The position numbers and the translations under genes are program-made. Below are positions 19,884 to 37,240 of a DNA stretch of 64,000 bases, one piece after another. Source of the stretch: Thalassotalea atypica (GTDB lineage: Bacteria; Pseudomonadota; Gammaproteobacteria; Enterobacterales; Alteromonadaceae). The DNA lies in the NCBI RefSeq assembly GCF_030295975.1, contig NZ_AP027364.1:2046001-2110000 (forward strand). The letters are read 5' to 3'. The notes beneath the pieces are model-generated. The model did no database searches, was not told the DNA's origin, and worked only from the letters and a program-made list of their open reading frames with translations. Positions within the stretch are counted from its first letter, which is position 1, and each line of letters opens with the position of its first letter.

Positions 19884-20777
19884 ATGAAAGTAGATCTAAA
19901 TTTATTTACGGTGTTTGAAGCGATTTATTGTGAAGGTAATATCAGTAAAGCCGCTTCGGCCTTGAATCTGTCGCAACCGGCGGTAAGCCATGCGTTGGCA
20001 AAACTGAGAGTACATTTTGATGATAAGCTTTTTGTAAGGCAGGCTAATTTAATGCGGCCCACTGCTTTGGCTAAAAACGTTATTGTCGATGTTCGGGAGT
20101 CGTTACGCCAATTGCAGCTAAGTCTAGTTCAGTCGCGCCATTTCGAGCCAGAAAGCTCAAGAAAGGTTTGTACGGTTTCTTTACTCAGTGCTTTAGATGC
20201 ATCGTTATTACCAAAGTTTATGGAACGCCTTAGTCAAAACGCTCCCCAAATTAACTTGATCAGCAATAGAGTAAGACGTAGTGAGTTAGAGAATAAACTT
20301 TCAAGCGGTGAAATAGATTTTGCACTTGATATTTTACTGCCAGTCAACGACAACGTAATGCATAAACAAATCAAAAGCGATAGGTTAGTGGCGGTTGCAC
20401 GGAAAGACCATCCAGCACTTACACAAGCGTTCGATCTTGATAATTATTTGTCTCAATCTCATGTATTGGTTTCGTCAAGAACCTCTGGCCCTAGTATTGA
20501 AGATTTCGAACTAGGCCGCTTAGGCTTACAGCGTAAGATAGGGCTAAGGTGCCAGCACTTATTTTCGGCTTGTCGCATTATTGCCACCAGTAATATGATG
20601 TTAACGCTGCCAGAAAATGCCGCCAAAATTTACAGTGAACTGCTAGACCTTACAATTATTGATATTCCTGTCGAACTTCCTAGTATTGATGTGCACTTAT
20701 ATTGGCACTTAAATGTCGATAAAGACCCTGCAAACATTTGGCTTCGAGAGCAGATGATTAAAGCAGTTCTTAGCTAA
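19884..20777 (+). CDS. LysR-family transcriptional regulator
   Basis: The 297-residue protein opens with a winged helix-turn-helix (LNLFTVFEAIYCEGNISKAASALNLSQPAVSHALAKLR) in residues 4-40, with the family's FVR segment soon after, and a substrate-binding domain from about 90 to the end (VRRSELENKLSSGEIDFALD, HVLVSSR). It is transcribed away from the acyl-CoA operon with 161 bp between the two starts, the classic arrangement for a LysR regulator controlling its divergent neighbour. Effector unknown; a CoA ester or the operon substrate is the natural guess. Confidence 0.9.
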   Translation: MKVDLNLFTVFEAIYCEGNISKAASALNLSQPAVSHALAKLRVHFDDKLFVRQANLMRPTALAKNVIVDVRESLRQLQLSLVQSRHFEPESSRKVCTVSLLSALDASLLPKFMERLSQNAPQINLISNRVRRSELENKLSSGEIDFALDILLPVNDNVMHKQIKSDRLVAVARKDHPALTQAFDLDNYLSQSHVLVSSRTSGPSIEDFELGRLGLQRKIGLRCQHLFSACRIIATSNMMLTLPENAAKIYSELLDLTIIDIPVELPSIDVHLYWHLNVDKDPANIWLREQMIKAVLS

Positions 20778-20887
20778 ATTAGATCAAAGTATTTAAAGAG
20801 GTATTCAAAATGCATCTTTAGGTGTATAATATGCGCCAAATAGACAAAGACGATGTAAATTGGATCGTTAGACTAGACGGTAAGCTT

Positions 20888-21505
20888 ATGAGTATTACAA
20901 CTCAACAAAAATCATTAGGCATATTTCCTCGTTCTTGGAGCGAAGATAAAGCTGGTAGAATCCCTGGGAACATTCCTATTTGGGTTGGTATTTTGTCTGA
21001 GCTAACAGAGTTCGGCATATTTTTTGTTGCTTATTTTATTGCAAAATATCATTACCCGGAGGCTTTCTCAGAAGGCCCTAAATATCTCCATACCAGCATT
21101 GGTGTTACCAATACCTTAGTCTTGTTATCAAGTAGCTATTTTATGGCCAAAGCAATGGCCAACATTAGAGTTGACAATTTTAAGCGTTGTGAACGCTACT
21201 TATGGCTAGCCGTGGCATGTGGTGCTACCTATTTAATTTTAAAAACCTATGAGTTTTATTGGAATGATTTAGAAAATATTCACACCAATACCAGCACGTT
21301 TTTTACTGTTTATTACTACATGACCTTTAACCACTTTTTACATGTAGGTTGGGCAGCCTGTGCGGTTGTATACGTGATTTTTCGCTTGCGTTCAGGCGCG
21401 TATTCAAGCAAAGAACATTCAGGGCTTGAAGCACTTGCCGTTTATTGGCACATGATTGATTTAATGTGGATCCTTATTTTTCCGCTGTTATATGTACTAA
21501 GGTAG
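20888..21505 (+). CDS. Cytochrome c oxidase subunit III family protein (NorE-like)
   Basis: From ATG 20888 the product has 205 residues and five hydrophobic helices. RIPGNIPIWVGILSELTEFGIFF is the characteristic first helix of NorE-type subunit III proteins, followed by TLVLLSSSYFMAKAM, YLWLAVACGATYLILKTYEFYW, MTFNHFLHVGWAACAVVYVIF and AVYWHMIDLMWILIFPLLYVLR with the conserved H and W residues. Starts at 20822 (GTG) or 20831 (ATG) are in frame but add a polar lead not typical of the family. A subunit IV-like gene follows at once, but no catalytic subunit (NorB or CoxA) is nearby. Such pairs are linked to nitric oxide reductase assembly or activity in some bacteria; here the partner is unknown. 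Confidence 0.85.
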   Translation: MSITTQQKSLGIFPRSWSEDKAGRIPGNIPIWVGILSELTEFGIFFVAYFIAKYHYPEAFSEGPKYLHTSIGVTNTLVLLSSSYFMAKAMANIRVDNFKRCERYLWLAVACGATYLILKTYEFYWNDLENIHTNTSTFFTVYYYMTFNHFLHVGWAACAVVYVIFRLRSGAYSSKEHSGLEALAVYWHMIDLMWILIFPLLYVLR

Positions 21506-21513
21506 GACAGATC

Positions 21514-21765
21514 ATGAAATTTGGAAAATTAGAAATATTTTGGCTCGGCCTTATTGGTATAACGTTGTTAAATACCTTTGTTGGTGAAAACTTTAGTTCA
21601 ACAGTTTTGGTGAGCGTGTTAATTGCTTTGACGGTAATGTACAAAGGATTAGTGGTGATTGATCATTTTATGGAACTTAAAGGAGGGCACAAAAATTTGC
21701 GCTTTTTAATGCGCGCTTATCTGATTTTATTCCCATCATTGATTGTCGTTTCGGCATTTTTCTAA
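21514..21765 (+). CDS. Cytochrome c oxidase subunit IV family protein (NorF-like)
   Basis: An 83-residue membrane protein starting at ATG 21514 behind a good ribosome site (GGTAGGA). Three hydrophobic helices are visible (IFWLGLIGITLLNTFVG, TVLVSVLIALTVMYKGLVVID and MRAYLILFPSLIVVSAF), with HFMELKG and the basic residues typical of prokaryotic subunit IV. It follows the subunit III-like gene by 8 bp and is surely co-transcribed with it. Together they look like NorEF. The gene is complete; a longer reading from 21466 overlaps the upstream gene and is not needed. Confidence 0.83.
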   Translation: MKFGKLEIFWLGLIGITLLNTFVGENFSSTVLVSVLIALTVMYKGLVVIDHFMELKGGHKNLRFLMRAYLILFPSLIVVSAFF

Positions 21766-21956
21766 CAATGTCTATTCGTTTTTACTAACGAAAATTTACT
21801 CACGTATTAGGTGTCGAAGGTTATTCTGGCACCAAATAAGAAAGAATCTTCCTTTCTACCATGAATGTAAGCAACATACTTACTTTTGTGCCCCTGAATT
21901 AATCAAAAATTAATTAACCATCTGATTGGTAAAGAAAAGATGAATAGGCTAGCTTG

Positions 21957-22333
21957 ATGAACAATGAATAAATCAAGGAAGCTTATTTTGAAATTGAGCA
22001 GCTTTTTTCTCAGTTAGAACAGTCTGAGAATAACCATGATGCCTATTGTCTAAAAGTAGTAGATAAAAATTGCCTTTTTCAGGCTGTGGGAGTCGTTATC
22101 AATATTTGCGCATGGAACATACGAGGTTATTAATGGGCTTTGGGTTAATAAAAGTCTAGATCTAAAGGCGAAGGTGAAAAGGTAATTCACGAGATCGTAT
22201 ACTAGGATCTGAGAGAGGCTGGAAACGAATTGATGTGTCTGCACCTGCGCGTGAGAAGTGGGATCGTACGTTTAAGTTTTATGAGAAAAACGGTTTTACA
22301 TTCACTGGACGAAAGCTAAAAGTTTGCTTGTAA
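21957..22333 (+). pseudogene. Decayed GNAT-like acetyltransferase gene
   Basis: No intact gene lies between 21766 and 22500, but pieces of one protein can be read in order across changing frames: EAYFEIEQLFSQLEQSENNH from 21978, HGTYEVINGLWVNKSLD around 22110-22165, KGEGEKVIHEIVY then a stop then DLREAG around 22163-22220, and GWKRIDVSAPAREKWDR followed by FKFYEKNGFTFTGRKLK to a stop at 22333. The last segment is the typical C-terminal acetyl-CoA-fold end of a GNAT protein (FYEKNGF). At least two frameshifts and several stops are present, so it is inactive. The first third is weakly supported. Confidence 0.65.
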
Positions 22334-22500
22334 GTAGACTTATCAAGCGACTCGGCTAAGTTACTAAGAACCGACGAGCTATTTGGCAGCTTTCTTTTGC
22401 AACACATTTTTACAAGTAATATTTAGCCACGTATGGCGTTGTTATTTGTCATCAGAGATACTCAAACAATAATTCTATAAAAATAACATCAATACGGATA

Positions 22501-23193
22501 ATGCTAATGACATTGCAAAAATGGGGCGGGGTTGCCGCAATTACTGAGGCTTGTACTTATATATTTGGGTTCATCTTATTTTTCGGCGTACTAGATGCCA
22601 GTGGGCACAATACGCCAGAGCAGTATTTAGAGTTTTTTATTGAGAATAGAGACACCTATTTTATCGGTTACCTTGTCAGTGGCATTTTATTTAGCTTTGC
22701 GCTCATCATTCTAGTTCAATCGATTTATCAACGTTTTAAGGATGCTTCTCCAGAGTTTATGAAATTTACCACTACAGTGGGTTATCTGTGGGTATGTATA
22801 GTACTAGCAAGTAGTTTTATATTTCTGACCAGTCTTGGCGCAATTGCCAAATACCATGCATTAGATCCCGAACAAGCGTTGGCAATTAATCGTAGTATTT
22901 CCATCGTTGTGGATGCGCTGGGAGGCGGCATTGAATTAGTAGGCGCTGTATGGGTGCTTGCTATTAGTTATGTCGGTTTAAAAAATAAAATATATAGCGC
23001 TTTACTGCATTATTGGGGCGTACTGGTTGGTGTTGCGGGCATTTTAACGCTTTTTTCTGGCCTTTCATTTTTATCGCAAAATCCATTTTTCGAACTAACC
23101 ACGGCTATTTTCGGTTTAGGGCAAATTCTTTGGTTTTTAGTGTTAGGTCTCGCAATGTTACGAGATTCTACTGATGAAATTGAATCTACATAG
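22501..23193 (+). CDS. Multi-pass membrane protein, DUF4386-like
   Basis: A 230-residue protein with six hydrophobic helices and short loops, starting MLMTLQKWGGVAAITEACTYIFGF. The N-terminal helix with a GG and an E, the central ILVQSIYQRFKD and the NRSISIVVDALGGGIELVGAVWVLAIS helix resemble DUF4386 membrane proteins, whose function is not known. No ligand-binding or catalytic motif is evident. It is not closely linked to neighbours: 167 bp downstream of the decayed acetyltransferase and 117 bp before the dioxygenase-like gene, with an AT-rich upstream region. Confidence 0.75.
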   Translation: MLMTLQKWGGVAAITEACTYIFGFILFFGVLDASGHNTPEQYLEFFIENRDTYFIGYLVSGILFSFALIILVQSIYQRFKDASPEFMKFTTTVGYLWVCIVLASSFIFLTSLGAIAKYHALDPEQALAINRSISIVVDALGGGIELVGAVWVLAISYVGLKNKIYSALLHYWGVLVGVAGILTLFSGLSFLSQNPFFELTTAIFGLGQILWFLVLGLAMLRDSTDEIEST

Positions 23194-23310
23194 TCAATAA
23201 CAGAGATCATTAAAAGTTAGATAAACTGCCGTGGCTATTTATTTTGATGTGTTTATTTGTATGAGTTGCTTATTAATTAAATTGGTTTAGATATTAAGGA
23301 GATAGTCTAA

Positions 23311-23931
23311 ATGACATTATTTACTCGCAGAAGATTACTAAAAGGTTTTGCGGCGATTACGGGTTTAACCGTACTTTCACGCAGTGCGGTTGCTCAAGTG
23401 TTAACACCTAGCGCAACGGAGGGACCTTTTTACCCAAACTCATCAATGCGGTTTGACGACATAGACAACAACCTCGTGAAGATCAAAGGCAAAGTAGAAC
23501 AAGCGGGTGGTGAAATCATCCACCTTAAAGGCAAGATCTTAGATAGAAAAGGAAACCCTTTGGCAAAGCACCGCATCGAAATCTGGCAGTGTGACGTTAA
23601 TGGCAGGTACCTACATTCTGGTGATAGTAGACACGATGGCTATGACAATGGCTTTCAAGGATTTGGCCATGATATTACCGATGGAAACGGCAATTATAGA
23701 TTTACCACTATAAAGCCTACCGTTTACCCTGGCCGTACACCGCATATTCACGTCAAAGTACTTGATAGCGACCACGAATTGTTAACGACACAATTTTATA
23801 TTTCGGGCGATAAAAACAATGACAATGACGGCCTGTATCGAAGGATGTCAGCAGAACAAGCCAAAAGTGTTTCTATGGTTTTCGTTGAGCATGGAAACGT
23901 TGTGGAAACCAATATTGATGTGATTGTGTAG
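23311..23931 (+). CDS. Exported intradiol ring-cleavage dioxygenase-like protein
   Basis: The 206-residue protein begins with a twin-arginine-like signal (TRRRLLKGFAAITGLTVLSR, cleavage near AVAQ), then an intradiol dioxygenase core: ATEGPFYPN, GKILDRKGNPLAKHRIEIWQCDVNGRY, and VYPGRTPHIHVKV. Both iron-ligand tyrosines (in GRY and in VYPG) and both histidines (HIH) are present. Cytosolic relatives open catechol or protocatechuate between the hydroxyls; exported members are less well known and may act on aromatic or lignin-like compounds. No other aromatic-degradation gene is near. A strong AAGGAG site precedes the ATG. Functional iron site is likely, substrate unknown. Confidence 0.86.
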   Translation: MTLFTRRRLLKGFAAITGLTVLSRSAVAQVLTPSATEGPFYPNSSMRFDDIDNNLVKIKGKVEQAGGEIIHLKGKILDRKGNPLAKHRIEIWQCDVNGRYLHSGDSRHDGYDNGFQGFGHDITDGNGNYRFTTIKPTVYPGRTPHIHVKVLDSDHELLTTQFYISGDKNNDNDGLYRRMSAEQAKSVSMVFVEHGNVVETNIDVIV

Positions 23932-23989
23932 AAGTGTTGTAGTTAGGCTACCAGATATAAATTAATGATAAAATAAACAAGGAGTTAAT

Positions 23990-24196
23990 ATGTCAAATAA
24001 ATGGAAATGTCCTAAATGCGATTGCCGAGAATTTGATACTGATACTATTGCTACTACGGGCAGTGGTTGGTCAAAAATATTTGATATGCAAAATCGTAAA
24101 TTTACAGCGGTAATTTGCTCGAATTGCTCTTACACAGAGTTTTACCGAGGCAAGACAAGCACGCTCGGTAATGTTTTTGATTTATTTACTCATTAA
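23990..24196 (+). CDS. Small zinc-ribbon protein (DUF2082-like)
   Basis: A 68-residue protein with one zinc ribbon: WKCPKCDCREFD at the N-terminus and VICSNCSYTEFYRG later give two C-x2-C knuckles. The phrase SKIFDMQNRKFTAVICSNCSYTEFYRG and the ending LGNVFDLF fit a family annotated as putative nucleic-acid-binding zinc ribbons. An AAGGAG ribosome site lies just before the ATG. No functional partner is evident; the initiator tRNA array follows on the other strand. Confidence 0.8.
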   Translation: MSNKWKCPKCDCREFDTDTIATTGSGWSKIFDMQNRKFTAVICSNCSYTEFYRGKTSTLGNVFDLFTH

Positions 24197-24252
24197 TTCT
24201 GACAATCTATGGAAATATATTTGCTTGCTTAATTAAAGAAATAGAAAAGAAT

Positions 24253-24305
24253 TGGTTGCGGGAGCCACTGTTTTAGAAAAGAGTGAACTGACGACCTAAG
24301 GTCGT
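24253..24305 (-). pseudogene. Truncated initiator tRNA remnant
   Basis: On the minus strand the last part of the initiator tRNA is recognisable: the acceptor strand with GGCTCCCGCAACCA and GGTCGTCAGTTCA from the variable and T arm. Between them the T-loop end is replaced by a 17-base segment able to fold (CACT with AGTG, TTTT with AAAA). The 5' half is missing; in its place GGTCGT is mirrored to form ACGACCT/AGGTCGT. It cannot make a working tRNA. Confidence 0.7.
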
Positions 24306-24351
24306 ACATAATGAAATGAATACTTATTAAGTTTCAGAATTAGATAAAAGT

Positions 24352-24428
<77 letters not shown>

Positions 24429-24490
24429 TCCGAATGGTTTAAGTGAACACTTAAACAAGCCTTAGAAGTTTTAATTCATTCTAAAAGAAT

Positions 24491-24567
<77 letters not shown>

Positions 24568-24624
24568 TCCGAATGACCTACAAAAAGTAGGAAAGCCAAG
24601 TTGTTTTAATTCAAACTTAAGAAT

Positions 24625-24701
<77 letters not shown>

Positions 24702-24757
24702 TCCGAATGACCTACATTTGTAGGAAGCCAAGTTAGTTTTAATTCAAACTTAAGAAT

Positions 24758-24858
24758 TGGTTGCGGCAGCCAGATTTTAAAATAAACATGACGACCTTCG
24801 GCTATTCTTTTATATAACAGCCCGACGAGGTTGAACTTTTAGGCTGCTCCATCCCGCG
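24758..24858 (-). pseudogene. Loop-replaced initiator tRNA copy (101 bases)
   Basis: Aligned with the intact copies, all outer parts agree except one base in the acceptor stem (G67 for C67), but three blocks differ: the T loop (4 bases replaced by 11), the anticodon loop and its closing pair (7 by 18) and the D loop (5 by 11). The total length rises from 77 to 101. The CAT anticodon is gone; the new anticodon region can form GGCTGTT/AATAGCC. It cannot decode AUG, but acceptor stem and CCA are kept. Either a pseudogene or a structured RNA of other use. Confidence 0.8.
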
Positions 24859-24920
24859 TCCGAATGATTTAAGTTTTCACTTAAATAAGCCTTAGAAGTT
24901 TTAATTCACTCTAAAAGAAT

Positions 24921-24997
<77 letters not shown>

Positions 24998-25313
24998 TCC
25001 GACGCAGTATATAAAAAGATTATAGACTACTTAGATTTCAAGAAAATGTTTGTAAAAACTGCTTCCTTGAAAGCGAGGCGTATCATAGTGATCTCTATTT
25101 GAATTTGCAAGACGTTTCATGAAAAAAATAACAATTAACGCCTTATTGTTTAAAGATAATACAGATTGCTCAACCATTGTGCGAAGCAATATCTATTTGG
25201 CTAATTTCAAGCTACCTTATCGCTCGTTTTTAAGCGGTGAAATAGTAAGTCACATTCAGTTTATATTTCATTATGTTAATTAAACGTAGATAAGTTCTAA
25301 TTTTTGCCGAACA

Positions 25314-25344
25314 TTGAGACAAACACTTAAGGTTTAAGTATAAT
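25314..25344 (+). promoter_or_regulatory. Probable rlmKL promoter
   Basis: TTGAGA at 25314-25319 and a perfect TATAAT at 25339-25344, with a rather long 19-base spacer, lie 30 bp before the rlmKL start. The region from 24998 to 25313 has no convincing gene. Confidence 0.5.
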
Positions 25345-25374
25345 CGCCGCCATTATTTCTTGTGGAAATTCGCC

Positions 25375-27507
25375 ATGTTTCGTTATTTAGCTTTAACCTC
25401 TCCAGGTATTGAAGTACTCCTTGCAGATGAAGTTAAAACATTAGGTGCTACTAATGTAGTGCAAAAGCCTGAGGGCGTGTATTTTGATGGTGATCTTGCG
25501 ACAGGTTATCACATTTGTTTATGGACTCGATTTGCAACACGAATCCTTCTGAGAATTGGAGAAGGCGATGCCAGCTCGAAAGATAAATTGATCGAAAGTG
25601 CCAATGCGGTAAATTGGTCTGGTATTTTTGCTCCTGAGCATACGTTTGCTATTGATTTTGTAGGTAAAAGCGAAGACATACGTAACACGCAATTTGGTGC
25701 GTTAACGGTTAAAGATGCTGTGGTTGATCATTTCATGGCATTAAATGATGAAAGGCCATCAGTTGACAAAAATCAACCAGACGTTCGATTTCAAGCCCGT
25801 CTATTAAAAGATAACATCGCTATATATCTTGATTTTTCTGGTCGTAGTTTATTTCAGCGTGGATACCGAGAGCATACCGGTGCTGCACCACTTAAAGAGA
25901 ACCTAGCAGCAGCGATGGTAAAACGCTCTGGTTGGCTAGAAGATACAAGTAAGCCTCTTGTGGATCCTATGTGCGGTTCAGGCACGGTTGTTATCGAAGC
26001 TGTGTCTATGGCGGCGAAACAGGCGCCAGGACTTGCTCGTACTGTGTGGGGTTTTGATAACTGGCTTGATCATGATGAAGCCTTATGGCAATCAAAAGTC
26101 ATTGAAGCACAAGAAGCTTCAGAAAAAGGTTTAGACAATTATACGGGCAAAGTTTACGGTAGCGATCTAGATAGCAGAGTGCTAAATACCGCAAAACAAA
26201 ATGCCAGAAATGCTGGCTTTTCTGCCAACATAGAATTTAGTGTGAAAGACGTAAACAGAGTCGATAATGTTTTTTCAACACCTGGAGTTCTGCTGTTTAA
26301 CCCTCCTTACGGTGAGCGTATTGGTGAACTACCTGAGCTTGTAGAGAGCTTTGCCATGCTTGGGCAAAAACTCAAACAACAATATCAGCAATGGCAAGTT
26401 GCAATACTTACGGCGAATAAAGAATTGTTGGCGATGCTAAAGTTGGCGACGACAAAACGATATAAGTTTAAAAACGGGCCGTTGGATTGTCAGTTTGCTT
26501 TGTATCATATGAATGAAAAACAGGTTGAGCGAGACGCGGTAACTGGAAATATTGATTTAAGTGATCAAAATTCTGATTTTGCTAATCGCTTAAAGAAAAA
26601 CATTAAAACGCTTAAAGGTTGGGTTAAATCGGAAGGTATCGAGTGCTACCGTTGTTACGACGCCGACATTCCAGAGTTTAATGTTGCGGTCGATTTATAT
26701 GGCGATTATTTAGTGATCCATGAGTACGCTCCACCTAAAAATATCGAGCCTGAAAAAGCCGCTAAACGCCTACAAGAAGTAATATTTTGGGCTCCTAAAA
26801 TCACTGGTGTTGATACCAGCAAAGTGGTATTAAAAACACGAGCAAAACAAAAGGGTGCTAGTCAGTATCAGCGTGTAGATAAGAAAAATCAAAGCCTTGT
26901 CGTCAATGAGTATGGCGCAAAGCTAAAAGTTAACCTTTGGGATTATCTCGATACGGGTTTGTTCTTAGATCATCGCAAAACACGTCAAATGGTCGCTAAA
27001 AAGTCAAAACATAAATCACTGTTGAATTTATTTGCCTACACGGGCTCCGTTTCTGTGCAAGCTGCTTTACATGGTGCTTCGCAAGTGACAACGGTTGATA
27101 TGTCAAAAACCTACTTGCAATGGGCTGAAGAGAATTTTGCACTTAACAAACTGGTGGGACATAAATATCAGTTTATACAAGCAAACTGCTTACAATGGCT
27201 TAAAGAGCAAAGCGAAAAGTACGATGTTGTGTTTATTGATCCTCCAACGTTTTCAAACTCTAAACGCATGGAAGATACGTTTGACGTACAACGTGATCAC
27301 GTTGCTATGTTGACAGATGCGCTCAATGTATTAGCAGATAACGGTGAGATTGTTTTTACTAATAACAAGCGCAACTTCAAAATAGATACAGATGCGCTGC
27401 AAGCAATTGGTCTTAAAGTCGAGAGTTTAACAGAAAAAACGCGTGACAAAGATTTTGCTCGAAATAAGCACATTCATAATAGTTGGTCTTTGAAAAGAAT
27501 TAAGTGA
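25375..27507 (+). CDS. rlmL: Bifunctional 23S rRNA methyltransferase RlmKL (m2G2445 / m7G2069)
   Basis: The start is ATG 25375 (MFRYLALTSPGIEVLLADEV), matching the family N-terminus; a TTG at 25360 adds five residues without need. The 710-residue product is close to E. coli RlmKL (702). It has an N-terminal THUMP domain, a first methyltransferase domain with DPMCGSGTVVIEA and the catalytic FNPPYGER (about residue 310), and a second domain with LFAYTGSVSVQAALHGA, TVDMSKTYLQWA and the FIDPPTFSNSKRM motif. The two halves methylate G2445 and G2069 in the large-subunit rRNA during assembly. A glutaredoxin-like gene and uup follow, a common order in Alteromonadales. Confidence 0.95.
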   Translation: MFRYLALTSPGIEVLLADEVKTLGATNVVQKPEGVYFDGDLATGYHICLWTRFATRILLRIGEGDASSKDKLIESANAVNWSGIFAPEHTFAIDFVGKSEDIRNTQFGALTVKDAVVDHFMALNDERPSVDKNQPDVRFQARLLKDNIAIYLDFSGRSLFQRGYREHTGAAPLKENLAAAMVKRSGWLEDTSKPLVDPMCGSGTVVIEAVSMAAKQAPGLARTVWGFDNWLDHDEALWQSKVIEAQEASEKGLDNYTGKVYGSDLDSRVLNTAKQNARNAGFSANIEFSVKDVNRVDNVFSTPGVLLFNPPYGERIGELPELVESFAMLGQKLKQQYQQWQVAILTANKELLAMLKLATTKRYKFKNGPLDCQFALYHMNEKQVERDAVTGNIDLSDQNSDFANRLKKNIKTLKGWVKSEGIECYRCYDADIPEFNVAVDLYGDYLVIHEYAPPKNIEPEKAAKRLQEVIFWAPKITGVDTSKVVLKTRAKQKGASQYQRVDKKNQSLVVNEYGAKLKVNLWDYLDTGLFLDHRKTRQMVAKKSKHKSLLNLFAYTGSVSVQAALHGASQVTTVDMSKTYLQWAEENFALNKLVGHKYQFIQANCLQWLKEQSEKYDVVFIDPPTFSNSKRMEDTFDVQRDHVAMLTDALNVLADNGEIVFTNNKRNFKIDTDALQAIGLKVESLTEKTRDKDFARNKHIHNSWSLKRIK

Positions 27508-27547
27508 TCACGAGTGACACTCAGTTAATGCAGGAACTTATATAGAG

Positions 27548-27787
27548 ATGTTAAACGCATTTATTTTATATAGCAGTGAAGGGTGCCACTTGTGCGAAGA
27601 CGCGCTTGCGCTTTGCCATCAAGTACCTAGTCAAATACTGTTAACCGTAGTTGATATTGTTGAGCATAATGATCTGGTTGAACAATATGGCCAGCATATT
27701 CCTGTCCTACAGCGTGACTTTGATGGCAAAGAGCTGTTCTGGCCTTTTGATTTAGCCACGCTATGTAAATTTATTGAAGAGAAATAA
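27548..27787 (+). CDS. Glutaredoxin-family small thiol protein (DUF836)
   Basis: A 79-residue thioredoxin-fold protein with the redox motif GCHLCEDA at residues 11-18 (C-H-L-C) and the cis-proline loop HIPVLQRD near residue 57. It matches the glutaredoxin-like DUF836 family often found between rlmKL and uup. It probably reduces disulfides or glutathionylated targets in the cytosol, but its partner is unknown. Eight bases separate it from uup, so the two are co-transcribed. Confidence 0.87.
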   Translation: MLNAFILYSSEGCHLCEDALALCHQVPSQILLTVVDIVEHNDLVEQYGQHIPVLQRDFDGKELFWPFDLATLCKFIEEK

Positions 27788-27795
27788 AACCTAAG

Positions 27796-29703
27796 ATGGA
27801 ATTAATCAGAATTACTAATGCCGAACTCGCTTTTGGTGAAGATAAAATACTAGATGACGCCGATGTCCGTATTAACAAAGGTGAAAGAGTTTGTTTAGTG
27901 GGGCGTAACGGCGCCGGTAAGTCTTCATTACTTAAAGTGATAAGCGGCGAAAGTCAACTCGACGATGGTCAGATCATCAATTTAAATAACATTAAAATAG
28001 CAATGTTAGCGCAAGATCCACCAGAGTCTTGTGAGCTGAGTATTTTTGATTATGTATCATCAGGTTTAAAAGAAAACGCCACGCTTATCCAAAAATACCA
28101 CGACTTAGTTAACCTTGTCGCCACTGAACCTTCAGAGAACAATTTAGAAAAACTATCATCAGTTCAATTACAACTTGAACAAGCCAATGCATGGCAAGAT
28201 GAACAGCGAATAGAGCAAGTAATGTCTATTTTATCGCTCGACGCTAATCAAAAAGTCAGTGATTTATCCGGAGGTTGGCTTCGAAAACTAGCGCTTGCAC
28301 AAGCGTTAGTTACAAACCCTGATGTATTGTTGCTTGATGAGCCCACTAACCACTTAGATATTAAAAGTGTTCTGTGGTTAGAGAACTTTTTAAAAGACTT
28401 TACCGGTACTATTGTATTTATTAGTCACGACAGGGCATTCATTCGCTCTTTAGCGACACGTATTGTTGATTTAGATCGTGGCAATCTCACTAGTTACCCT
28501 GGTAACTACGATACTTATGTAGAGCAAAAACAACATGATTTACAAGTTGAAGCACAGCAGAATGCGTTGTTTGATAAACGCTTAGCAGATGAAGAAGTGT
28601 GGATCAGACAAGGTATTAAAGCGAGGCGTACACGTAATGAAGGCCGCGTAAGAGCATTAGAGAAGCTCAGGGTTGAGCGTCAGCAACGTAGAGAGCTTCG
28701 CTCTCAAGGAGATATGCAAATCTCCAGTGGTGAGCGTTCAGGTAAATTAGTGTTTGAGTCTGAAAACTTGTCTATGTCATTTGGTGACAAGCATGTTATT
28801 AAACAGTTGGATTTGTTGATTAGCCGAGGCGATCGTTTAGCGCTTATTGGAGCTAACGGAACAGGTAAATCAACGTTGATTAAGCTGCTGATGGAACAAA
28901 TTCAGCCAAGCTCTGGAAAAATGCGAGTTGGTGTTAATTTGGATATCGCCTACTTTGATCAGCATCGTGAACAACTTGACCCGATGAAAACAGTGCAAGA
29001 CACCGTTGCAGACGGTAAGCAAGAAGTGATGATTAATGGTCGCTCTCGGCATGTCTTAGGTTACTTACAAGATTTTCTATTTAGTCCAAAACGTGCTAGA
29101 ACGCCTGTTCGAGCGCTTTCCGGAGGAGAGAAGAACAGATTATTACTGGCACGTTTGTTTTTACGACCAAGTAATCTATTGATTCTCGATGAGCCAACTA
29201 ACGACCTAGATATAGAAACACTTGAACTTTTAGAAGAAGTTGTTGCCAATTATAATGGCACGGTCATTTTAGTGAGCCATGATCGGGATTTTGTTAATAA
29301 TTGTGTTAATACCTGTTTGTATTTCGACGGTAGTGGCAGTATAGAACAAATTGTTGGTGGTTATGATGATGTAGACCAACACCTAGAATATAAAGCAAAA
29401 CAAGCTCAAGCGTTAGAAAAAAAATACGCGCCTACTGTTGAAGATAAGGCTGTTAAAGTAGCAACTAAACAACAGGTAAAGAAAAAATTATCTTATAAAG
29501 AGAACAGAGAGCTTGAGTCTTTGCCAAATGAAATAGATAATCTGGAATCTTTAATTGCTTCACTACAAGAACAAGTGAATGATCCAAACTTCTTTTCGCA
29601 AGAAAATGAAGCAACGACAAAAATATTGAACCAGCTAACTGAAAGTGAGTCAAAGCTCGAGGCTGCCTATGAAAGGTGGCAAGAGTTAGATGCTAAACAA
29701 TAA
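27796..29703 (+). CDS. uup: ABC-F ATPase Uup
   Basis: The 635-residue protein has two ABC nucleotide-binding domains and no membrane segments. Domain 1: Walker A GRNGAGKSS (about 37), signature LSGGW, Walker B VLLLDEPTNHLD. Domain 2: GANGTGKST (about 353), signature LSGGEKN, LLILDEPTNDLD. The linker and a charged C-terminal coiled coil (KKLSYKENRELESLPNEID) are those of Uup. ABC-F proteins of this type act on the ribosome, and Uup also influences precise excision of transposons and branched DNA. It is downstream of rlmKL and upstream of the DUF3466 gene. Confidence 0.93.
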   Translation: MELIRITNAELAFGEDKILDDADVRINKGERVCLVGRNGAGKSSLLKVISGESQLDDGQIINLNNIKIAMLAQDPPESCELSIFDYVSSGLKENATLIQKYHDLVNLVATEPSENNLEKLSSVQLQLEQANAWQDEQRIEQVMSILSLDANQKVSDLSGGWLRKLALAQALVTNPDVLLLDEPTNHLDIKSVLWLENFLKDFTGTIVFISHDRAFIRSLATRIVDLDRGNLTSYPGNYDTYVEQKQHDLQVEAQQNALFDKRLADEEVWIRQGIKARRTRNEGRVRALEKLRVERQQRRELRSQGDMQISSGERSGKLVFESENLSMSFGDKHVIKQLDLLISRGDRLALIGANGTGKSTLIKLLMEQIQPSSGKMRVGVNLDIAYFDQHREQLDPMKTVQDTVADGKQEVMINGRSRHVLGYLQDFLFSPKRARTPVRALSGGEKNRLLLARLFLRPSNLLILDEPTNDLDIETLELLEEVVANYNGTVILVSHDRDFVNNCVNTCLYFDGSGSIEQIVGGYDDVDQHLEYKAKQAQALEKKYAPTVEDKAVKVATKQQVKKKLSYKENRELESLPNEIDNLESLIASLQEQVNDPNFFSQENEATTKILNQLTESESKLEAAYERWQELDAKQ

Positions 29704-29720
29704 GTGAGATTAAGAAATAC

Positions 29721-31466
29721 ATGAATAAGATGTTTAAGTCATTGGTTGCCCTGAGTGTTGCTAGTGCATGTACAATTACCATAGCAAATGCTGCCACGTA
29801 TGAAGTTTTCGACAAAGGGGATGTTGACTCACTTAAGTACACCTATTCACATACTGCGAATGAATCCGGAGATGCGGCGATATCAGGTACAGATGTGTAC
29901 AATTTTCCGGTTCAATTTCAATATCTAGATGATGATGATTTTGATGATATTGAATCACTTGCAGACAGGCAACATGAACTGGTTCATGAGTTAGAAGATT
30001 TAGAAGACTTCGAAGCGTTAAAAGCGGGCAACCCTACAGCGAACGATTTGTCTTGGGCAATTCGTTTTCTTGAAGCAAATGGAAGCAGCTTATATCAGAA
30101 AGTAGGTGATCAAGTTTCCATGGTAAATGACGGCAGCCAGAGTACTGAATTTGTTGTTTACGATAAGCCATTTGAAGGCACTGACACGTTAACGCGATCA
30201 ACTAAGGACAGTATTGCAGGTATTACCAATGAAGGGTGGGTATACGGAACAGGCTCAGCACCTTATTTCCCTGAGCCTTTTACTGAAAGTGATGGTGATG
30301 AAGTAACTCATTGGATCCGAGACTTCCAAGAACGTGGTTATGTTTCACCTGATATGGGACAAACAATATTCGAACTCGTACCACCTGAAGCAAGTTTTGC
30401 TGGCGGGCGTTCAGCTTTTTTAGATGCAACTAATCGTACCGCTGTAGGTTATGTCAGTAACAAGCTTAATACTGATTTAGTGGAAGATTACATTTTGGAT
30501 ACCACTGGTGGGTGTTCTGATCCTGATGTACTTGAAGATTTACCATTTAATGCCTGTGTTCAAAACCAGGCGAACAATCTTTACCACTTAATGGCCTATC
30601 AATGGAACTTTAGTGATGATGGTCAGCTTCTCGATGAGAAAGAACTCGGTTTGTTAGTGACACCTCATGAAAATGATGATCGAATTTTCCAGAGTTATGC
30701 TCAATCGGTGAATTCACATGGCGTTGCAGTAGGCTTCTCACACGGTTGGATAGATGAAAAAGAAACGACGCCAAGTGACAATGAAGCTCGTTCATTTTAT
30801 GCCGTAGTATTTAAAGATGGAGAAGTGATTAGCTTTACACCTGATCACAACGAGCATTTTGACTCACGTGCGTACGATATAAATGATAGTGGTATCGCTG
30901 TAGGCCATGTAAATACTTATATTAACGGCAATTTACGTACAAAGTTCTATTATGTTGATACTAATGCTCCAGCATCAGAAATGGCCTTTGTTTCACCAAA
31001 TGATTTCTTTGAGGGCTCGTCAAGTACAGCACGTGCGATAAACGAAAATGGCTTTATTGTAGGTGAGGGGGAAGTTGAAACTCATAATGATAGTGCATCA
31101 AACCCACGCCGTACCCATGCTTTTTTATATGACATTGCCGAAGATAAGTTTACTGACTTGAATTCGTTTTTAAGCTGTAATTCAGATTACACCATTATTG
31201 AAGCACGTGATATTAACGAATTAAATGAAATTTCAGCCACAGCTATCGTGAAAGCGCCTAGAAGAGATTCGAAAGGCGAATTAATGTTAGGTGAAGACGG
31301 TGAACAGCTGGTTGAAGATGTTGTTCGTGCAGTTACCTTAAAGCCTATCCCAGGTGAAGTCGAAGACTGTTCTAAGGTTGAAGATAAAGTTGAACGCAAA
31401 GGTGGCGCTTTGGGTTGGGGCTTATTAGGTTTATTAATCAGCTTTGGCTTTAGACGCAAAGCTTAG
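29721..31466 (+). CDS. DUF3466 family exported protein with a C-terminal sorting-like tail
   Basis: The 581-residue protein has a signal peptide (KMFKSLVALSVASACTITIANA), a long acidic ectodomain with repeated phrases (GITNEGWVYGTG, AVGYVSN, GVAVGFSHGW, SGIAVGHVNT, NENGFIVGEGE) like the HAF-type beta repeats, and a C-terminal GG-ALGWGLLGLLISFGFRRKA tail: a glycine motif, a hydrophobic helix and basic residues, resembling GlyGly-CTERM sorting signals. DUF3466 proteins are typical of Vibrio, Shewanella and Colwellia, and usually follow uup. Function is not established; surface exposure is likely. A strong terminator follows it at 31489. Confidence 0.88.
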   Translation: MNKMFKSLVALSVASACTITIANAATYEVFDKGDVDSLKYTYSHTANESGDAAISGTDVYNFPVQFQYLDDDDFDDIESLADRQHELVHELEDLEDFEALKAGNPTANDLSWAIRFLEANGSSLYQKVGDQVSMVNDGSQSTEFVVYDKPFEGTDTLTRSTKDSIAGITNEGWVYGTGSAPYFPEPFTESDGDEVTHWIRDFQERGYVSPDMGQTIFELVPPEASFAGGRSAFLDATNRTAVGYVSNKLNTDLVEDYILDTTGGCSDPDVLEDLPFNACVQNQANNLYHLMAYQWNFSDDGQLLDEKELGLLVTPHENDDRIFQSYAQSVNSHGVAVGFSHGWIDEKETTPSDNEARSFYAVVFKDGEVISFTPDHNEHFDSRAYDINDSGIAVGHVNTYINGNLRTKFYYVDTNAPASEMAFVSPNDFFEGSSSTARAINENGFIVGEGEVETHNDSASNPRRTHAFLYDIAEDKFTDLNSFLSCNSDYTIIEARDINELNEISATAIVKAPRRDSKGELMLGEDGEQLVEDVVRAVTLKPIPGEVEDCSKVEDKVERKGGALGWGLLGLLISFGFRRKA

Positions 31467-36300: not shown

Positions 36301-36376
36301 GCGGCTGTAGCTCAGTTGGTAGAGCATCACGTTGCCAACGTGAATGTCACGAGTTCGAGTCTCGTTAGCCGCTCCA
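36301..36376 (+). tRNA. tRNA-Gly (GCC)
   Basis: 76 bases with encoded CCA; anticodon loop TTGCCAA. It differs from the three later Gly copies by one D-loop base (AGTTGG rather than AGCTGG). Confidence 0.96.
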
Positions 36377-36442
36377 ATTTCTTTCTTATCGTAAGGTTTG
36401 AAAGATGATCTAAGGAAATACTATCCAGTTGTAGTGAAATAT

Positions 36443-36516
36443 GGCGGGTTGGCAGAGTGGCTATGCAGCGGATTGCAAATCCGTGGACCTCGGTTCGACT
36501 CCGGGACCCGCCTCCA
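36443..36516 (+). tRNA. tRNA-Cys (GCA)
   Basis: 74 bases with encoded CCA; anticodon loop TTGCAAA. It is the only copy in this cluster and lies four bases before a Leu gene. Confidence 0.96.
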
Positions 36517-36520
36517 CAAT

Positions 36521-36606
36521 GCCCGGGTGGTGGAATTGGTAGACACAAGGGATTTAAAATCCCTCGCTGAATAAGCGTGACGGTTCAAGTCCGTCTCCGG
36601 GTACCA
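36521..36606 (+). tRNA. tRNA-Leu (TAA)
   Basis: 86 bases with a long variable arm (CGCTGAATAAGCG) typical of class II tRNAs, anticodon loop TTTAAAA and encoded CCA. Three identical copies occur here. Confidence 0.96.
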
Positions 36607-36668
36607 TTTCACATACATTGGTTGTATAGAAGAAATGTAGATTAGCGTCTACAGTGTTGAAAATTTAA

Positions 36669-36744
36669 GCGGCTGTAGCTCAGCTGGTAGAGCATCACGT
36701 TGCCAACGTGAATGTCACGAGTTCGAGTCTCGTTAGCCGCTCCA
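36669..36744 (+). tRNA. tRNA-Gly (GCC)
   Basis: 76 bases, anticodon GCC, encoded CCA. Its upstream flank (AAAATTTAAG or similar) is shared with the next Gly gene, indicating recent tandem duplication. Confidence 0.96.
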
Positions 36745-36789
36745 ATTTCAACAGTAAAAGTCTTTATTTTTAAGGCAAGAAAAATTTAA

Positions 36790-36865
36790 GCGGCTGTAGC
36801 TCAGCTGGTAGAGCATCACGTTGCCAACGTGAATGTCACGAGTTCGAGTCTCGTTAGCCGCTCCA
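36790..36865 (+). tRNA. tRNA-Gly (GCC)
   Basis: 76 bases, identical to the copy at 36669, with encoded CCA. Confidence 0.96.
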
Positions 36866-36907
36866 AAATTTTACTATTCGTTCGAGATGAAAATTAGGCA
36901 ATTCGTT

Positions 36908-36993
36908 GCCCGGGTGGTGGAATTGGTAGACACAAGGGATTTAAAATCCCTCGCTGAATAAGCGTGACGGTTCAAGTCCGTCTCCGGGTACCA
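36908..36993 (+). tRNA. tRNA-Leu (TAA)
   Basis: 86 bases, identical to the copy at 36521, with encoded CCA. Confidence 0.96.
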
Positions 36994-37014
36994 TTTCATC
37001 TTTGAACATATGAA

Positions 37015-37090
37015 GCGGCTGTAGCTCAGCTGGTAGAGCATCACGTTGCCAACGTGAATGTCACGAGTTCGAGTCTCGTTAGCCGCTCCA
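37015..37090 (+). tRNA. tRNA-Gly (GCC)
   Basis: 76 bases, identical to the copies at 36669 and 36790, with encoded CCA. Confidence 0.96.
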
Positions 37091-37154
37091 ATCTCCCTTT
37101 TAGTTATTAAAAGAACTAGGTGATCCAATACTTAGTATAAAAAACTTCCCTTAT

Positions 37155-37240
37155 GCCCGGGTGGTGGAATTGGTAGACACAAGGGATTTAAAATCCCTCG
37201 CTGAATAAGCGTGACGGTTCAAGTCCGTCTCCGGGTACCA
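37155..37240 (+). tRNA. tRNA-Leu (TAA)
   Basis: 86 bases, identical to the other two Leu copies. Last gene of the cluster; no strong terminator is evident right after it, only an AT-rich stretch. Confidence 0.96.

Follow-up and report, generated by a model that had tools for sequence, protein, structure and literature searches.

The window analyzed here, a 64,000-nucleotide stretch of Thalassotalea atypica DNA, contains a tandem array of tRNA-fMet units that runs on the minus strand from 24997 to 24253. In 5′ to 3′ order the array comprises one intact gene (24921-24997), an aberrant copy (24758-24858), three identical intact genes (24625-24701, 24491-24567, and 24352-24428), and a 3′-half fragment (24253-24306). 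All four intact genes are called by ARAGORN. The aberrant copy, hereafter the element, spans 101 bases from C1 (24858) to the CCA (24758) and is a rebuilt tRNA-fMet copy of a design that we term class I. The fragment, the sixth copy and likewise damaged, is termed type B; it is the 3′ half of tRNA-fMet with a hairpin (ACGACC-TTA-GGTCGT) and an expanded T loop, and ends in GGCTCCCGCAACCA. The neighboring rlmL gene (25375-27507, plus strand) diverges from the array and marks its position in other carriers. Elements of this kind sit between intact genes in sense orientation, often alternating with them. The minus-strand spacers at 24429-24490, 24568-24624, 24702-24757 (between the element and the next tRNA), and 24859-24920 have a common loop, TGAATTAAAAC, between short inverted repeats. 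A second tandem tRNA cluster at 36301-37240 on the plus strand consists of repeated Gly-GCC and Leu-TAA genes and one Cys gene, with no rebuilt copies seen by eye.

Direct comparison with the intact copy at 24625-24701 (minus strand) bears out the original observation: the element derives from tRNA-fMet and departs from it at one acceptor base and in three blocks that have been replaced, all on the minus strand. The D block GGTAG (5 bases) is replaced by AAAAGTTCAAC (11 bases), and the rebuilt D region, TAAAAGTTCAACC at 24829-24841, constitutes the near-invariant signature of class I. The anticodon block CATAAC becomes GTTATATAAAAGAATAG at 24802-24818, a change from 6 to 17 bases rather than the 7 to 18 counted originally; with its flanks this insert, whose sequence varies between genomes, forms an extended GGGCT...AGCC hairpin. 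The T block GTTC (4 bases) becomes the variable TGTTTATTTTA (11 bases, 24778-24788), a block absent from several class I copies, which have a T loop of normal length. Finally, C67 in the 3′ acceptor strand is changed to G (24767), a position at which 29 class I copies carry T (17), C (7), A (3), or G (2). The original prediction confined the blocks to loops. The three blocks do fall at loops, but each also removes one loop-closing stem base, namely G22, C39, and G53. With its CAT block replaced, the element lacks an anticodon and cannot decode, as had been proposed, and the view that the changes are non-random and related to structure is supported.

The element goes unreported by both ARAGORN and Rfam: the former calls only the four fMet genes in the array, and two Rfam searches report these same intact genes and leave the element unmatched. 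Neither a CAT anticodon in a seven-base loop nor a canonical D stem with GG in the D loop is present. The CCA is retained, and the window copy allows five acceptor pairs. An intron-containing tRNA was considered and rejected, because the anticodon itself is gone and there is no intact anticodon with a removable insert at 37/38; in contrast, archaeal tRNAs found among the pattern matches described below carry their insert behind the anticodon. We file the element as belonging to no known family and as failing as a tRNA. A limited literature search found no description of rebuilt fMet copies.

When a 151-base stretch around the element was searched for in 60 related genomes, other genera proved to hold copies with altered loops that match it strongly, namely those in genomes G009 (89%), G013 (81%), and G007 (80%). 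A pattern for the enlarged anticodon arm matched 15 of 295 genomes of the family in 7 of 52 genera, three of these genomes (G007, G093, and G135) having other designs. A related pattern, applied to one genome per species over 84,980 species, returned 65 stretches, 11 of which belong by reading to the same class. Named class I carriers are Colwellia piezophila, C. psychrerythraea ND2E, Colwellia sp. RSH04, C. maritima, C. echini, C. marinimaniae, C. polaris, and C. ponticola, joined by a Colwellia MAG, an uncultured Colwellia, and an uncultured Alteromonadaceae. Ordinary tRNAs make up part of the remaining stretches, fitting the pattern by way of a repeated CCGAAGG, an N gap, or an internal duplication; the rest are insert-bearing archaeal tRNAs, other designs, and chance matches that lack tRNA context. 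A phage origin was rejected, as a single viral contig matched the pattern and did so without tRNA context.

Stem conservation is partly imposed wherever patterns require stem letters, as do the anticodon-arm, type B, and 84,980-species patterns; the 60-genome search does not demand the anticodon arm, nor does a less biased pattern, GCGGGATGGAGCAGNNNNH, which asks for nothing beyond the 5′ end and a D loop that lacks its normal G. This latter search located 27 places in 19 of the 295 genomes: 20 class I places (13 genomes, four genera), six of a second design that we term class II, and one unrelated place (G167). Each class I place carries TAAAAGTTCAACC or a near form of it, and the anticodon hairpin is present in 20 of 20. 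Given that two designs were found, random decay is not expected as their source. In four genera, the named Colwellia among them, class I elements lie in fMet arrays adjacent to rlmL, and their distribution is patchy. By pattern, they occur in 11 of 39 genomes of one Colwellia genus and in none of six sampled congeners of the window genome with either the anticodon-arm or the D-loop pattern, and a 3′-half element is present in three of those six (G002, G003, and G004). This distribution speaks against plain vertical conservation.

Conservation of the inserts across species had been put forward as a mark of function, and related strains without them as a sign to the contrary. The D-region insert is indeed common to four genera, whereas the anticodon insert keeps its hairpin but not its sequence; the six congeners lack the element, but other genera carry it. 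The palindromes in the anticodon and T inserts are what template switching in this genome would leave behind, and an assembly artefact was a further concern. Yet the D-region insert and the overall design recur in other genera and the window genome is a single contig, which makes an assembly error very unlikely and leaves the originally suggested one-off template switch without support; we regard such explanations as extremely improbable. Template switching may have given rise to the ancestor or to the anticodon inserts. We conclude firmly that the element is not a one-off but a member of a small family of shared array units without an anticodon.

Class II was located by the GCGGGATGGAGCAGNNNNH search at six places in five genomes (G254, G093, G290 twice, G126, and G018) of the Pseudoalteromonas group and one other genus, and its D-arm pattern occurs in 19 of 80 genomes of G290's genus, taken as Pseudoalteromonas because the core of L190 equals that of Pseudoalteromonas rubra L098. 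The D arm reads AATGAT-AA-ATCATT, with the variants GATGAT/ATCATC and AACGAT/ATCGTT. In a set of 21 distinct elements, into which G093 and G018 were brought from the GCGGGATGGAGCAGNNNNH search, the outer D pairs are changed on both sides in G093 and G018, two copies show a C-A mismatch, and the T region is a hairpin (for example, TCGTCGG-TTC-CCGACGA) in 13 as counted by eye. These elements (L098 3910-3995; L172, L175, and L185-L214) lie about 100 bases before intact fMet genes: the intact gene starts 102-126 bases downstream in 18 of the 21 and 214-215 bases downstream, behind another element, in two, and the one remaining stretch reads N.

The type B design, a 3′ half with an expanded T loop, has matches in 37 of the 295 genomes and 14 of the 52 genera, counting one genome (G031) with a plain 3′-end duplication without new loop sequence. 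Type B elements often lie behind an intact gene, with six in tandem in G027, and their stem letters are CACT/AGTG in some and CCCT/AGGG in others. Nine Marinobacter, Alcanivorax, and Saccharospirillum records contain fMet 5′ halves in which the anticodon block has been replaced and a near-complement of the anticodon arm follows (L105 5616-5870 and 6080-6230; L136 6230-6760; L093, L104, L116, L121, L135, L146, and L153); the two examined in full context lie upstream of an intact gene. Several marine gammaproteobacterial lineages intersperse their fMet arrays with rebuilt copies lacking an anticodon, in a few recurring designs.

Other departures from the ordinary fMet gene were seen along the way. 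L008 (381-475), L047, and L080 hold fMet copies with enlarged anticodon loops and no class I D region; some of their anticodon inserts are similar to the T-loop inserts of type B (CTCTTCATAA, CGCTAATACAA), as though a single short sequence had entered different loops. In L128 (Pseudomonas brassicacearum) and L115 (a Burkholderiales MAG), the anticodon-variable-T region is duplicated in tandem within fMet genes. Downstream in L105 are repeated tRNA 3′ ends with terminator-like hairpins.

Conservation within class I was examined in an alignment (A2) of 29 distinct copies from 16 genomes, most rows of which came from the patterns that require stem letters. It was drawn from 34 extracted sequences after leaving out L008, L046, L047, and L098 (other designs) and L117 (a contig end). 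Twelve of the genomes fall in genera g1, g4, g8, and g62; the other four are named records (L106, L122, L152, and L155) with elements identical to those of g62 genomes. Between genomes, the 5′ acceptor strand is 96% identical, positions 8-15 97%, the new D region 92%, the anticodon insert 57%, the two sides of the lower anticodon arm 99% and 95%, the T arm 61%, and the 3′ acceptor strand with tail 77%. The window copy is 95% identical to the other copies in the D region and 49% identical in the anticodon insert. For comparison, its rlmL product shares 64-66% identity over 298-330 residues with those of 15 other carriers, and fourfold sites are 30-48% identical. A D region nearly fixed beside a changing anticodon insert is, at the level of sequence, the remaining evidence of apparent constraint, and part of this contrast could stem from a mutational hot spot in the insert.

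Conservation of the D region as sequence also suits a site that acts at the DNA level and lies within a tRNA copy by coincidence; this could be a promoter, a protein-binding site, or a site for recombination or an integrase. Many copies show TATAA-like cores roughly 15-17 bases from TTCAAC when read in alignment, and partial tRNA genes are known as marks of integrated elements (PMC9897764). A promoter scan, however, finds no promoter-like site inside the element, the seven neighboring proteins scanned include no integrase, transposase, or other mobile-element gene, and the changes fall in tRNA loops. A DNA-level role is accordingly an improbable one.

The original prediction also allowed for a selected RNA that keeps its acceptor end, and this receives little support. 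The acceptor helix is paired in 86.2% of cells, and pair 3-70 is lost in 10 of the 29 copies. Between genomes, identity falls from 96% in the 5′ strand to 77% in the 3′ acceptor stretch. In its favor, the AACCA end is kept in 23 of 29, and the acceptor stem is predicted (pair probability >0.5) in 14 of 29. Frequent weakening of acceptor pairs 3-70 and 6-67, together with the loss of the normal D loop and anticodon in both class I and class II, is consistent with spare copies whose folding and processing were blocked by selection against a harmful, faulty initiator tRNA, with no further function. Under this account any disabling mutation would suffice and outright deletion would be the simpler route, but a single D sequence has been retained, and folding still predicts the acceptor stem in those 14 copies. 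We give this account a slim chance.

In the structural predictions, the canonical D stem has a pairing probability of at most 0.01 in all 29 folded class I copies. On A2, a cloverleaf with an extended anticodon arm is paired in 88.4% of cells, with 73.9% for its D stem and 96.9% for the lower anticodon arm, and the rebuilt D stem GAGC/GUUC is paired in 99.1%. A fold in which this rebuilt D stem is joined by pairing of linker ACCU with AGGU below the anticodon stem reaches 95.4% overall, and an RNAalifold structure, whose 5′ strand closes on the D region, reaches 97.6% without two weak distal pairs. The cloverleaf with large loops was rejected against these two structures, in a comparison of fit rather than a proof given that pair numbers differ across the folds (23, 21, and 19). 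A D-arm/anticodon-strand hairpin combined with the T stem is paired in 94.8% of cells. Two-sided changes occur mainly in the T stem and mirror those of normal genes, so covariation lends little independent support. The single-strand fold of the window copy is no better than that of shuffles (z -0.72) and minimum-energy folds differ among the 29 copies; hence no fold is claimed from energy.

One pairing stands out in these predictions. Across 19 distinct inserts, the four bases that open the insert are paired to GAGC in 63 of 76 cells; shuffled inserts average 28.9 (sd 3.7), and 0 of 1000 shuffles scored as high, in a control that ignores ancestry and pairing with the other side of the arm. The corresponding helix of 10-17 with 37-44 is paired in 94.0% of cells. 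According to this model, the GGGCU-RYUY strand has two possible partners, GAGCAGYY of the D arm on its 5′ side and UAGCC of the anticodon arm on its 3′ side, and so offers two mutually exclusive hairpins. Because of this pairing, the element might be imagined as a dedicated RNA switch derived from initiator tRNA, possibly controlling output of the fMet array, with the 5′- and 3′-type elements as genome-encoded tRNA halves that flank tRNAs. We consider so specific a role quite unlikely.

Spacers of other genera match most of the length of the window spacers at 24702-24757 and 24568-24624 at 82-98%, as illustrated by 98% identity over 57 bases in C. ponticola and, for 24702-24757, by up to 93% over 58 bases. 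Matches were sought in 26 loci, six congeners included, and neither spacer has a match at E up to 0.001 in the searched congener loci, some of which are cut by contig ends. Array units thus seem to pass between genera, and rlmL saturation is therefore not a fair clock. Moreover, in 25 of the 27 copies that could be tested, out of 29, the T stem (49-52) is identical to that of a normal fMet gene in the locus, and the letters before the D block agree likewise (25 of 27, read from the same table). As far as sequence can tell, these identities show that the ends of the elements are overwritten by normal copies of the host.

Such exchange invites a neutral explanation, in which an old, dead fMet copy persists and spreads because tandem arrays recombine, both inside a species and across species. 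Normal copies would patch its ends by conversion, and copies overwritten in the core would revert to normal and go uncounted. Host-like T stems, spacers up to 98% identical to those of other genera with none found in the searched congener loci, a patchy distribution, and a loosely kept acceptor and T arm all fit a pseudogene lineage, which accounts for the patchiness, the overwritten ends, and the common spacers at least as well as a structured RNA does. What it explains less readily is the core. The D region has no donor among the normal copies and is nearly fixed beside a changing anticodon insert, the anticodon hairpin is kept at all 20 class I places, and similar rebuilding with other sequences has occurred in other lineages. 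A check of the whole genome for a possible donor located TAAAAGTTCAACC at two sites, one of them the element. We deem neutral persistence the main alternative, plausible though less likely than a structured RNA.

We tentatively favor the view, at a probability of roughly 0.48, that the array transcript contains the element as a structured RNA segment that does not decode and that selection and recombination together maintain. We infer this function from three features: constraint on the D region, retention of the anticodon arm, and rebuilding in parallel in other lineages. The same D region and anticodon hairpin recur at 20 of the 27 places with an altered D loop, in a search that did not demand the anticodon arm, and parallel rebuilding with other sequences is exemplified by class II, with its two compensated variants, and by the Marinobacter-type 5′ halves. 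Counted against a structured RNA are the differing folds, the z of -0.72, the patchiness, and the spacers common to other genera. Under the structured-RNA reading, the rebuilt unit would be transcribed together with the array tRNAs and would act as a structured non-decoding segment of the tRNA precursor. Its D and anticodon arms would fold independently instead of forming a tRNA elbow, and the unit would be neither charged with methionine nor used in initiation; it may instead steer the folding and processing of neighboring tRNAs, or be released as a small RNA. The family represents either an unrecognized RNA element tied to initiator-tRNA production or an unusually clear case of arrays that make, keep, and trade pseudogenes between species.

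Several known systems resemble parts of this picture. In the Escherichia coli tyrT tandem repeats, associated with rtT RNA, partial copies of the tRNA-Tyr 3′ end are repeated behind the intact gene, a likeness that extends to type B elements only, as these too are tRNA 3′-end copies repeated behind an intact gene. The rtT repeats derive from tRNA-Tyr and contain only its last bases, whereas class I copies are full length with rebuilt arms, and the rtT Rfam family has no match over 20000-30000 at E up to 1. Photobacterium phosphoreum possesses a repetitive tRNA-Pro/tRNA-His cluster said to hold pseudogenes; by description alone, this is likewise a marine gammaproteobacterial tandem array with pseudogenes, made up of other tRNAs. 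Mobile elements leave partial tRNA genes, often mis-annotated, beside intact copies (PMC9897764), and both these and the element are tRNA-gene derivatives next to intact copies. Relative to the fragments described there, the element is full length, has rebuilt loops, and is interspersed in an array, and its seven neighboring proteins include no mobile-element gene; the integrase or island expected beside an attachment fragment is thus missing among them. Finally, tRNA-Other of Bacillus cereus is a pseudo-tRNA inactive in translation that lies within a larger regulatory RNA (PMC3399842). It is a single gene at a genomic island, with no array and no fMet origin, and it is alike to the element of T. 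atypica in being a non-decoding, tRNA-like element.
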